In this document: in pieces, positions 52,040-58,998 of the stretch | Numbering within the stretch: the first letter of the stretch is position 1 | Layout of the letters: every line of letters starts with the position of its first letter | Assembly: GCA_025363815.1 (NCBI GenBank) | Contig: JANYLB010000060.1 | Coordinates: 1 to 64,000 of the forward strand | Source of the DNA: Actinomycetes bacterium | Lineage (GTDB): Bacteria; Actinomycetota; Acidimicrobiia; IMCC26256; JANYLB01 | Length of the DNA stretch: 64,000 nt | Direction: 5' to 3' | Translations under genes and position numbers: made by a program | Notes under the pieces: model-generated | What the model saw: only the letters and a program-made list of their open reading frames with translations | What the model was told of the DNA's origin: nothing | Database searches by the model: none

Positions 52040-52112
52040 GGGGCTGTAGCTCAATTGGCAGAGCGCGTCCATGGCATGGACGAGGTAGCCCGTTCGACCC
52101 GGGTCAGCTCCA
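52040..52112 (+). tRNA. tRNA-Ala (GGC anticodon)
   Basis: Full cloverleaf: acceptor GGGGCTG/CAGCTCC with a G3-U70 wobble (the alanine identity element), anticodon stem CGTCC/GGACG around ATGGCAT (anticodon GGC), and T-arm CCCG-TTCGACC-CGGG. The discriminator is A. CCA is not encoded, unlike in the other two tRNAs here, so it must be added by the nucleotidyltransferase. Confidence 0.95.
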
Positions 52113-52163
52113 CTTCAGTTCTTCATCAGTTTCACGTCTGAGCGCCTCCATAGACTCACCGGC

Positions 52164-52796
52164 GTGATCGCAGTCGTCGACTACAGGGCCGGCAACGCGC
52201 CGAGCGTGATCTTCGCCCTCGAGCGGCTCGGGATCCCATGTCGGCTCGCGTCGAGGCCCGACCAGCTCGAGCATGCGGAGCGGATCATCCTCCCCGGGGT
52301 CGGCGCGGCCCGAGCGACAATCGATTCCCTGCGCGACTCCGGCCTCGTCGAACCCCTCAGCGAGCGGGTCCTCGGCGCCGGCGTTCCCTTCCTCGGCATC
52401 TGCATCGGGCTGCAGGTGCTCTTCGACCACAGCGAAGAGGGAGATGTCGAGGGGCTGGGCTGGATCCCCGGCCAGGTCCGGCGCTTTGCCGACACCCTAC
52501 GGGTTCCACAAATCGGTTGGAACGCCGTGCAGCCCACACAGCCACACCCGCTCTGGGGCGATGTAGCTCAGCCGGCTTACTGCTACTTCGTGAACTCCTA
52601 CTACGCGGTGCCCGCCGATTCCTCCGATGTTCTCGCCACCACCGAGTACGGAATCGAGTTCTGCTCGATGGCGGTGCGCGCCAATATCGCGGCCACGCAG
52701 TTCCACGCCGAGAAGAGCGGACAGCTCGGCCTGGCGCTCCTCGCCAACTTCGCGGTGTGGGACGGTCGCACCGGGGCGACGAGCCCGTCGTGCTGA
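52164..52796 (+). CDS. HisH-like glutamine amidotransferase
   Basis: 210 residues from GTG 52164. Class I glutamine amidotransferase of the HisH type: DYRAGNAPSVIFALERLG, ILPGVGAARATIDSL, the nucleophile Cys80 in FLGICIGLQVLFDHSEEGD, and the His181/Glu183 pair in TQFHAEKSGQLGLALLANF. The full triad is present, so it should release ammonia from glutamine for its partner. The partner is the overlapping HisF-like gene. No other his genes are nearby, and the partner has a changed catalytic residue, so a role outside histidine synthesis is plausible (WbuY-like). Confidence 0.85.
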   Translation: MIAVVDYRAGNAPSVIFALERLGIPCRLASRPDQLEHAERIILPGVGAARATIDSLRDSGLVEPLSERVLGAGVPFLGICIGLQVLFDHSEEGDVEGLGWIPGQVRRFADTLRVPQIGWNAVQPTQPHPLWGDVAQPAYCYFVNSYYAVPADSSDVLATTEYGIEFCSMAVRANIAATQFHAEKSGQLGLALLANFAVWDGRTGATSPSC

Positions 52797-53587
52797 CCAA
52801 GCGGATCATCGCCTGCTTCGACGTGATCGCCGGACGGGTCACCAAGGCGCAGCAGTTCCAGGACAACATCGACGTCGCCGCGGCCGACGCGCTCGCGACC
52901 CGTCTCTACGACGATCAGATCGACGAGATCGTGTTCTACGACATCACCGCCAGCTCGGAGCAGCGCAAGATCGATCTCGACACTGTGCGCGCAGTCGCCC
53001 GACACGTGTTCGTCCCGTTCACCGTCGGTGGAGGAATCCGATCGATCGAAGACATGTTCGAGGTGCTCAAGGCCGGCGCGGAGAAGATCAGCGTCGACTC
53101 GATGGCGGTGCGGGACCCCGACATCATCCGCCAGGGCGCGGAAGCCTTCGGTCGTCAGTGCATCGTGCTCTCGACCCAGGTGAAAGCCGTAGGCATCCGC
53201 CAGGGCATCCCGAGCGGGTACGAGGTCTTCGTCGACGGCGCCCGCACCGCCACCGGCATGGACGCGCTCGAATGGGTGCAACGGGGGGCGGCCCTCGGCG
53301 CAGGCGAGATCTGCGTGAACAGCATCGACCGGGACGGCACTGCCTCTGGTTACGACCTCGACATAACCCGCGCCGTCGCCGATGCGGTCAACGTCCCGGT
53401 GATCGCGTCGGGCGGCGCCGGAACCGTCGAGCACATCGCCGACGGACTCACCGCGGGAGGGGCGTCGGCCGCGATCATCAGCTCGATCCTGTATTCACCT
53501 CGCTTCGAGCGGAACCTCGGCGTGCGTGAAATCAAGGACGGCCTCGCAGAGCTCGGCGTCCCCACCCGTCCCTATCTCGACACCTGA
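52790..53587 (+). CDS. HisF-like cyclase subunit with Gln at position 130
   Basis: 265 residues from GTG 52790, overlapping the HisH-like stop by 7 bases. A (beta/alpha)8 barrel of the HisA/HisF family: TKRIIACFDVIAGRVTKA with the catalytic Asp11 kept, FYDITASSE, VPFTVGGGIRSIEDM, CVNSIDRDGTASGYDL and IASGGAGTVEHI. The second catalytic Asp (Asp130 in Thermotoga HisF) is Gln here, in IVLSTQVKAVG. This form recalls the WbuZ-type proteins linked to sugar amidation. Loop 1 (residues 16-30) is also unlike canonical HisF. The true substrate is unknown. Confidence 0.85.
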   Translation: MLTKRIIACFDVIAGRVTKAQQFQDNIDVAAADALATRLYDDQIDEIVFYDITASSEQRKIDLDTVRAVARHVFVPFTVGGGIRSIEDMFEVLKAGAEKISVDSMAVRDPDIIRQGAEAFGRQCIVLSTQVKAVGIRQGIPSGYEVFVDGARTATGMDALEWVQRGAALGAGEICVNSIDRDGTASGYDLDITRAVADAVNVPVIASGGAGTVEHIADGLTAGGASAAIISSILYSPRFERNLGVREIKDGLAELGVPTRPYLDT

Positions 53588-56582: not shown

Positions 56583-58097
56583 TCAGCCGTCGACGATGTC
56601 GGTGACGAACCGTTCGAGCTGGCGAAGATTGCGGCACTCGAACACACCGTCGCAGAACTTGGCGTACTCGGAGACGATCGAATCGCCGCTGTCCCAGTAA
56701 CCGCGCGGCTCGGGATTCAGCCAGTACACGTGACGGGCCCGAGTCGCGAGCTGCTCGACGACCCACGACTCCGACGCGTGATAGTTGTTCCGAGCGTCCC
56801 CCAGAAGGATGACAGAGGTCTTGGGCGTGATCTCGGCGAAGTGGCGTTGGTGGAATATCTCGAACGCGTGGCCGTAATCAGAATGCCCATCGACCCAGAC
56901 CACGTCGGCCTCTGTGTTCACCCGGTGCACGGCCTCGGTGATCTCGTCGGACTCCTGGAAGAACCGCGTGACCTCGTCGATCCCGTCGATGAACACCCAC
57001 GACCGCACCTTCGAGAACTGCGCGGCCATGGCGTAGACGAACTGCAAGGTGAACCGGGCGAAGCTCGCGACAGAACCGGAGATGTCGGCGACGACCATGA
57101 TCTCGGGGCGGGACGGGCGAGGATGACGGAACTTTGGTTCGGCCGGCACCCCGCCGTACGACAACGAGTGCCGTACTGTCGCCCGGAAGTCGAGATGGCC
57201 GCGGTTGCGACGCTTCCGGCGCTGGGCGAGCCGGGCGGCCATCGCGCGCGTCAACGGGTAGATGGCGCGCTGCAACGCCAGCATCTCCTCGCGGGACGCG
57301 TGCATGAAGTCGACGTCTTCTGGAAGTGGCTTGCGCAACGTGCGCGCCATCGCCTCCGCGCCGCGGTCGGCCACGAGGCGTCGACGGATCTCCGACTCGA
57401 CCAGATCGCGCAGCACCCGGAGCCGCTCCTCGAACTCCTCGCGCTGGAATCGCTCGGCGAGTGTGTCGACGTCGTCGGCTTCGTCGGGCTCGCGGACTTC
57501 CTGCGCGCGCGCGATCATCTTGGCCACGAGGCCGTCGTAGTCGAGCTGACGGAGGGTGCGGTACAGGTAATAGGTGCCACCCACCGGACGGCCCGGCTCC
57601 ATACCGGCGAAGCGGGCGACCGCCGCCGCTGCGATCTTGCGGAGCTGCTCGCGGTCCATCGACATCATGGCGGAGAGCAGCATCTCAGCCAGCTCCTCGG
57701 CAGAGACCTGACCCTCGCCGCCGGAGCCGCCTGTGCCCTGGATCTGCGATTCGAGACTCTCGGCGGCCTCGGTTCCGTCGTCACCGAACCCGTCGCCGCC
57801 GATTCCCGGCACGATCAGGGAGAAGTAGACATCGAAGACGGTGTCGAAAGCGCCGGCGTGCTGGTGGTGCTTGACCAAGGTCGCCGCGAGGGACGATTTG
57901 AACGACTGCCGATCCTCGATAGACACGTGTTCGAGCGCGCGCATCGCGTCGAGGTTCTCCGTCATCGAAACGGGGAGACCGGCGGCCCGCAGCTCGTGGA
58001 CGAACCCCTGCAGCACGTCGAGCAACGTGTCGCCGGGCGGAGAGATCAACGGGCCGTTGGTCCGGGTCATCACGTCGTTCAGCTTCGCCCACTGCAC
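56583..58097 (-). CDS. VWA-domain protein, CoxE-like
   Basis: 504 residues from GTG 58097; ATG 58070 is an alternative. An N-terminal helical part (LLDVLQGFVHELRAAGLPVS) and an acidic Gly-rich loop lead to a C-terminal VWA domain with the MIDAS motif DISGS (MVVADISGSVASFARFTLQF) and DGHSDYGHAFE. It belongs with the MoxR ATPase encoded 4 bases upstream. Such pairs act as metal-dependent chaperones, as in CO dehydrogenase maturation (CoxD/CoxE). No target enzyme is encoded next to them. Confidence 0.87.
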   Translation of the reverse strand: MQWAKLNDVMTRTNGPLISPPGDTLLDVLQGFVHELRAAGLPVSMTENLDAMRALEHVSIEDRQSFKSSLAATLVKHHQHAGAFDTVFDVYFSLIVPGIGGDGFGDDGTEAAESLESQIQGTGGSGGEGQVSAEELAEMLLSAMMSMDREQLRKIAAAAVARFAGMEPGRPVGGTYYLYRTLRQLDYDGLVAKMIARAQEVREPDEADDVDTLAERFQREEFEERLRVLRDLVESEIRRRLVADRGAEAMARTLRKPLPEDVDFMHASREEMLALQRAIYPLTRAMAARLAQRRKRRNRGHLDFRATVRHSLSYGGVPAEPKFRHPRPSRPEIMVVADISGSVASFARFTLQFVYAMAAQFSKVRSWVFIDGIDEVTRFFQESDEITEAVHRVNTEADVVWVDGHSDYGHAFEIFHQRHFAEITPKTSVILLGDARNNYHASESWVVEQLATRARHVYWLNPEPRGYWDSGDSIVSEYAKFCDGVFECRNLRQLERFVTDIVDG

Positions 58098-58101
58098 AAG
58101 T

Positions 58102-58998
58102 TCAACGACGGACGCCCGTGGGGGTCGGCCCCGTATCCACGCCCAGCTCCTTGCGCGCCTTGGTGATGTCGGACTGGTACTTCAGCAGCACGTGCAGCGT
58201 CTCGCCGATCACCGCGGGGTCGATCTCGTTTCGGCCCAGAAACAGCAACGTGCGGGCCCAGTCGATGGTCTCGGAGATCGACGGTGCCTTCTTCAGGTCG
58301 AGCGCGCGGATGGAACGCACGACCTGGGCGACCTGGTCGGCGAGCGCGTCGTCAATCTCCGGCACGCGCACCCGCACAATGTCTTTCTCGCGTTCGATGT
58401 CGGGATAGTCGATGTGCAGGAAGAGGCACCGGCGCTTCAACGCTTCGGAGAGCTCACGGGTGTTGTTCGACGTGAGGATCACAATCGGACGCTGCTTGCC
58501 GATGATGGTTCCCAGCTCCGGGATCGACACCTGGAAGTCGGAGAGGACCTCAAGCAGCAGCGCCTCGGTCTCGATCTCGACGCGGTCCACCTCGTCGATG
58601 AGCAGCACAATCGGCTCTTCGGCCCTGATCGCTTCGAGCAACGGCCGGGTCAGGAGGAAAGGTTCCGAGAAGATGTCGGACTCGACCTCTGCCCAGTCAC
58701 CCTCGTGCTCACGGTCGGCTTGTATCCGCAACAGTTGCTTCTTGTAGTTCCACTCGTAGAGCGCCTTCGACTCGTCGAGGCCCTCGTAGCACTGGAGGCG
58801 GATGAGCCGCGATCCGGTGATCTCGGCGATGGCCTTGGCGAGCTCGGTCTTGCCGACCCCGGCCGGGCCCTCGACGAGTACCGGCTTCTCGAGCCGGTCG
58901 GCGAGGAACACCACGCCGGCGATGCTGGCGTCGGCCAGGTAGTCGGCGCCGCGCAGGCGGTCGACCACCTCGTCGACCGAGTCGAAACGTTCTGCCAC
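58102..58998 (-). CDS. MoxR-family AAA+ ATPase
   Basis: 298 residues. Walker A is VEGPAGVGKTELAKAIAE, Walker B is IVLLIDEVDRVEIE, sensor 1 is IVILTSNNTRELSEALKRRC and the arginine-finger region follows (RRCLFLHIDYPD). It resembles CoxD from CO dehydrogenase clusters more than the classical MoxR. It should remodel a protein together with the VWA partner downstream. It follows proA by 4 bases, and no functional tie with proline synthesis is known. Confidence 0.9.
   Translation of the reverse strand: MAERFDSVDEVVDRLRGADYLADASIAGVVFLADRLEKPVLVEGPAGVGKTELAKAIAEITGSRLIRLQCYEGLDESKALYEWNYKKQLLRIQADREHEGDWAEVESDIFSEPFLLTRPLLEAIRAEEPIVLLIDEVDRVEIETEALLLEVLSDFQVSIPELGTIIGKQRPIVILTSNNTRELSEALKRRCLFLHIDYPDIEREKDIVRVRVPEIDDALADQVAQVVRSIRALDLKKAPSISETIDWARTLLFLGRNEIDPAVIGETLHVLLKYQSDITKARKELGVDTGPTPTGVRR

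Follow-up and report, generated by a model that had tools for sequence, protein, structure and literature searches.

HisF is a model enzyme for the evolution of TIM barrels, for allostery and for ammonia channelling, and Asp11 and Asp130 are its accepted catalytic pair. In T. maritima HisF these two residues serve as general acid and general base, respectively (PMC11350729); Asp130 has been reported to be essential (PMC5919458, PMC11350729), and the substitution G20A cuts kcat about 100-fold (PMC11350729). Positions 103 and 130 belong to one layer of the residues lining the cleft, and no substitution at either of them, or at 171, came out of a complementation library screen (PMC4565649). N103 is also a predicted functional residue (PMC5980557).

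The hisHF pair described here is located in a stretch of 64,000 nucleotides from an Actinomycetes bacterium, referred to below as the window (Table 1). With the HisH-HisF imidazole glycerol phosphate synthase (IGPS; TIGR00735/TIGR01855; T. maritima 1gpw, 7ac8) it has in common the fold, the heterodimer genes, the HisH triad, the ammonia gate (R5/E46/K99/E167), Asp11, Lys19, Phe23, Asp176, the phosphate loops and the pathway context; it differs from the T. maritima type by Gln130, Asp103, Ala20, Glu98, Tyr50, Met105, Asn171, Ser224 and inserts. The WbuY/WbuZ and AglZ/HisF2 systems (TIGR03572, NF038364) likewise pair a HisF fold with HisH, but the WbuZ/HisF2-like proteins from the order of the window possess Leu11, Asn or Gly103 and Asp130, and constitute a separate clade. 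Yeast His7, a HisHF fusion (1ox5/1ox6), has Asn at the Thr171 position as in the variant (PMC5980557), but its Asp404, the counterpart of Asp130, is retained, and Gly stands in place of residue 103. In T. maritima HisF engineered to carry D98E, glutaminase is hyperactivated, with a shift to the active state and a higher turnover (PMC8115485), whereas Glu98 of the variant is natural, fixed and accompanied by a rebuilt cleft. A separation of hisHF from the his operon also occurs in Lachnospiraceae, as a two-gene hisF-hisH operon in Roseburia; the accessible part of that report mentions no active-site change (PMC7478625). On the sequence evidence, the pair is a real and consistent IGPS variant rather than an orphan amidation enzyme; we infer both that it is active and what Asp103 does in it.

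Table 1. Features of the hisHF locus and its surroundings in the window; codons were assigned by alignment to T. maritima HisF (1thf).
Feature	Position	Strand	Remarks
tRNA-Ala(GGC)	52040..52113	+	ARAGORN; upstream of hisH, after leuS
hisH (glutaminase subunit)	52164-52796	+	GTG start, 210 aa, TIGR01855
hisF	52790-53587	+	GTG start, 265 aa
Asp11 codon	52820..52822	+	catalytic acid, retained
Ala20 codon	52847..52849	+	Gly20 in canonical HisF
Glu98 codon	53081..53083	+	Asp98 in canonical HisF
Asp103 codon	53096..53098	+	replaces Asn103 of canonical HisF; proposed new site of the carboxylate
Gln130 codon (CAG)	53177-53179	+	Asp130 in canonical HisF
Asn177 codon	53318..53320	+	counterpart of T. maritima HisF Thr171
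VWA/CoxE-like protein adjoining AAA ATPase	56583-58998	minus	MoxR-like arrangement

The hisHF locus and its genomic background

The two genes overlap by 7 bases. The HisH subunit matches TIGR01855 with 197.1 bits, above the cut-off of 105.4, and the complete Cys-His-Glu triad recognized in the initial annotation corresponds to Cys80, His181 and Glu183 (HisH positions 84, 178 and 180); Lys184, equivalent to K181 of T. maritima, is retained. Among relatives, C84 and H178 are present in 94/94 and E180 in 93/94. The alignment of HisF to 1thf, which provides the residue numbering used throughout, bore out the combination of Asp11 and Gln130 that had been read from the sequence. The protein scores 277.6 bits against TIGR00735, under the cut-off of 294.55, as does most of its clade (mostly 268-291 bits, with a single member slightly above at 299), and identity to canonical HisFs is 38-49%. 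Its AlphaFold2 model has a mean pLDDT of 94.7 and best matches HisF-LUCA (4evz), 1ka9 and 1gpw in the PDB.

The initial annotation had also noted that no other his gene is close, and none was found among the open reading frames listed for positions 40000-64000 of the window. In the 20 named Acidimicrobiia loci, rsfS follows hisF without exception, nadD then being present at 18, the two exceptions being contigs that end early. Upstream, leuS and tRNA-Ala(GGC) are found at most loci where the contig extends that far; the tRNA occupies the same position at 13 of the 20, the remainder being truncated or devoid of it, and the isolate IMCC26256 has neither leuS nor the tRNA within 5 kb of the pair. 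The placement of the pair between tRNA-Ala(GGC) and rsfS (52040-53587 in the window) is largely conserved across the order.

The description of the pair as an orphan holds for its location and not for the genome, which is 89% complete and carries hisG, hisI, hisA, hisB and hisD elsewhere. In this genome hisA comes after hisC and hisB without a flanking hisH or hisF, hisD and hisI share a contig with hisA and hisB, and hisG is located elsewhere. HisA, judged by eye, retains its aspartates; therefore PRFAR should be the substrate of the variant pair. A search with PF00977 clearly recovered two HisA/HisF proteins, the HisA encoded on a different contig and the variant HisF, which are also the only matches to TIGR00735. 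No second HisH was found in the genome with TIGR01855, so that the search for another hisHF suggested by the initial annotation yielded none. A borderline PF00977 match of 23.3 bits (23.6 with its neighbours) lies on a third contig (G000:C25:7921-8226, L003).

Taken by itself, a genome of this completeness could have lost a further copy from view. It is nevertheless unlikely that a second hisHF was missed through incomplete assembly, given the order-wide pattern and the complete genome of the isolate IMCC26256 (CP011489, L058; G015/G296), which encodes one variant HisF and one HisH together with hisA, hisB, hisD, hisG and hisI. We then considered 58 genomes of the order, the group to which IMCC26256 belongs; length and score of the match (plus the sequence itself where fetched) served to tell variants from the WbuZ-like class. 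Of these genomes, 28 have the variant and 19 a canonical HisF, with no overlap. Canonical genomes have hisB, hisH, hisA and hisF clustered, and variant genomes have hisB-hisA together and hisHF at a separate site. The simplest reading of this placement is a single acquisition of the pair by the order, at the site between tRNA-Ala and rsfS, followed by vertical descent; the hisH and hisF copies in the his operon of the variant lineages would presumably have disappeared afterwards.

A conserved exchange of active-site residues

We compared 118 sequences with Q130 (85 distinct as aligned) to 37 canonical HisFs; the set was collected using the variant as query, and intermediates may be under-sampled. 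D11, K19, A20, F23, E98, K99, D103, S104, Q123, Q130, V131, N171, D176 and S224 are invariant in 118/118 variants, and Y50 occurs in 110. In canonical HisFs, D130 and G20 are present in 37/37 and N103 in 35/37. Thus, of the accepted catalytic pair the window protein has the first member and lacks the second, which is Gln in all 118 variants; this fixation means that Gln130 is neither an artefact of sequencing nor an accidental substitution. Additional exchanges in the clade are G20A, L50Y, T104S, A105M, T171N and A224S, accompanied by inserts behind beta-5 and close to the C-terminus. The ammonia gate (R5/E46/K99/E167) is invariant in 118/118, and the phosphate-binding residues D176, G177, S201 and S225 are likewise invariant in the variants.

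About 20 positions have been swapped jointly and invariantly, and we therefore favor a rebuilt active site. The initial annotation held that a sole hisHF in a histidine-making genome would point to a tolerated change; the pair is indeed the only one, but this term undersells such a concerted exchange. The reading that the enzyme is weak, with Gln130 tolerated or a sign of decay, would agree with the crippling effect that G20A and the loss of Asp130 each have in T. maritima HisF (PMC11350729, PMC5919458). This is nonetheless highly unlikely, as the signature does not vary among the 118 sequences and conservation across the families of the order is no lower for the variant than for canonical HisF (mean identities of 81% and 76%, respectively). 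More improbable still is a phosphoribosylanthranilate isomerase (TrpF-like) activity. Mutating Asp130 of T. maritima HisF does yield such an activity, and non-charged residues at this position permit it on the HisF scaffold (PMC2667513), but HisH, the ammonia gate and the subunit interface, all needless for an isomerase, are fully conserved, and the genes are seen in a his-operon context, with no trp context observed.

In the rebuilt active site that we favor, HisH would hydrolyse glutamine and the ammonia would pass through the HisF barrel, where HisF would turn PRFAR and ammonia into imidazole glycerol phosphate and AICAR. Asp11 would be kept as the acid, while the textbook base Asp130 is replaced by Gln and Asn103 on the neighbouring strand by Asp; the carboxylate would thus have moved from strand 5 to strand 4. 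From the sequence pattern we infer that the part of Asp130 as base has passed to Asp103, perhaps together with Tyr50. Since D98E has its activating effect in T. maritima (PMC8115485), the fixed Glu98 likely confers, by analogy, a tighter or faster coupling to HisH, and it would allow the allosteric model to be tested on a natural enzyme. Histidine synthesis without Asp130, as is evident in this large natural clade, would imply either an incomplete accepted mechanism or a migration of the catalytic residues within the barrel; the textbook mechanism could then not apply to every enzyme of this type.

Phylogeny and distribution of the variant HisF

The initial annotation likened the pair to WbuY/WbuZ proteins and proposed a tree of HisF, WbuZ and the window protein. 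In a tree rooted on WbuZ-like sequences, these remain separate and the variant clade falls among canonical HisFs, with an SH-aLRT support of 99 (100 after removal of the diagnostic columns, in the set without L203). Leu11 and Asp130 are found in each of the ten WbuZ-like HisFs of the order (L220-L229), a reversal of the Asp11 and Gln130 of the window protein. Four of them were scanned and have WbuZ as top model, all slightly below its curated cut-off. The window HisF scores only 218.3 against the WbuZ model TIGR03572 (cut-off 299.7) and 186 against the AglZ/HisF2 model NF038364 (cut-off 310). Taken together, the scores, the separate clade and the opposite residue signature rule out its membership of the WbuZ/HisF2 group, and the supposed resemblance does not hold.

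A scan of GTDB genomes identified relatives with 62-71% identity, which belong to Clostridia, Treponema and further Spirochaetes, Coriobacteriia, a MAG of the Planctomycetaceae and a single cyanobacterium. The Planctomycetaceae sequence L203 (G330:C14:31838-32599) is sister to the variant clade, on a long branch; it has the insert and Asn171 of the clade, yet Asn103 and Asp130, and is possibly an intermediate form in view of these residues. An open-access literature search found no description of the variant clade, of a HisF without Asp130 or of a HisH-less HisF, and so far this widespread family appears to have been previously unremarked. An annotation gap is apparent here, the clade lying mostly under the cut-off of the HisF model and one RefSeq copy being vaguely named. 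This copy belongs to a hisHF pair of the variant type on a linear plasmid of Streptomyces sp. NBC_01462 (L230:14342-15789), and its HisF is labelled only 'HisA/HisF-related TIM barrel protein'. A role of the plasmid copy in specialised metabolism was considered and rejected; the adjoining HisA/HisF-like protein is a very weak match (27-30 bits) and there is no clear pathway.

Histidine operons and genomes with both HisF forms

At six clostridial loci, a complete his operon has the variant as its HisF. The order hisG-D-C-B-A-H-F(variant)-I is found at L066, L071, L075, L078 and L098, and matches that of L085 on a shorter contig; L081 has hisH-F(variant)-G-D-C-B-A-I. No other HisF was detected with TIGR00735 in G298, G302, G304, G305 and G306 (the genomes of L066, L071, L075, L078 and L081), the sole other match being HisA. 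The product of hisB consumes the IGPS product, and hisB is present in all 36 variant genomes reached via the wider scan. The variant is thus both the sole HisF of several histidine-making genomes and a member of his operons, and with the constant presence of hisB this makes IGPS by far the simplest role. The pair of the window is almost certainly the only IGPS of the cell. The best explanation, and in our view a very probable one, is a glutamine-dependent IGPS whose HisF belongs to a distinct clade and has a rebuilt active site, its activity being predicted.

A counter-point to the IGPS reading is that 14 of the 36 variant genomes from the wider scan also have a canonical HisF, and in these the variant could do something else. 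Together with the loss of Asp130, the separate locus and the Streptomyces plasmid copy, this could be taken to indicate that the pair supplies ammonia for a non-histidine amidation of the WbuY/WbuZ-HisF2 type or for some other new reaction, as the initial annotation had proposed. We regard this as quite unlikely: in this order, proteins of the WbuZ type carry the reverse combination of residues and form a separate clade, no sugar-amidation partner was seen in the examined part of the window, and the variant is the only HisF, within the his operon, in several genomes. There is no need to invoke a new ammonia-using reaction.

For the genomes with both forms, it is conceivable, though we hold it only tentatively, that the variant is an IGPS with a second function or a glutamine-dependent isoform beside a canonical HisF that uses ammonia. 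This is compatible with the main explanation, to which it adds a role in other genomes, and is inapplicable to the window genome with its one HisF. In 9 of the 14 dual genomes the sole HisH adjoins the variant, and the fetched his operons L252, L253 and L259-L263 have a canonical HisF without HisH. Gln123, presumably an interface residue, is lost in 8/9 HisH-less canonical HisFs, several of which also lack Asp98, whereas both residues are retained in the four canonical HisFs whose genomes encode a second HisH. A literature search gave no confirmation of Gln123 as an interface residue. Outside Acidimicrobiia, glutamine/ammonia enzymes (GuaA, CarB, GlmS, GatAB, AsnA, PyrG, GltBD, NadE, MurT/GatD) occur within about 6 kb of 23/60 variant loci compared with 1/20 arbitrary stretches, although their identities were assigned by eye from sequence, the queries had been drawn from the variant loci themselves and the controls from few genomes; most of the genomes are, moreover, MAGs. 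A division of labour would fit these sequences, in which the canonical HisF would use free ammonia and the variant HisHF glutamine. A natural and widespread IGPS class in which Asp103 replaces Asp130, Glu98 is activating and, in some anaerobes, a glutamine-dependent isoform stands beside a HisH-less canonical HisF that uses ammonia would likewise be a speculative proposal.

Variant hisHF genes lie amid glutamine/ammonia genes at L067, L086, L090, L105, L113, L119, L122 and others. The HisH-less canonical his operons (L252, L253, L259-L263; genomes G299-G330) look like those of stand-alone enzymes using free ammonia.
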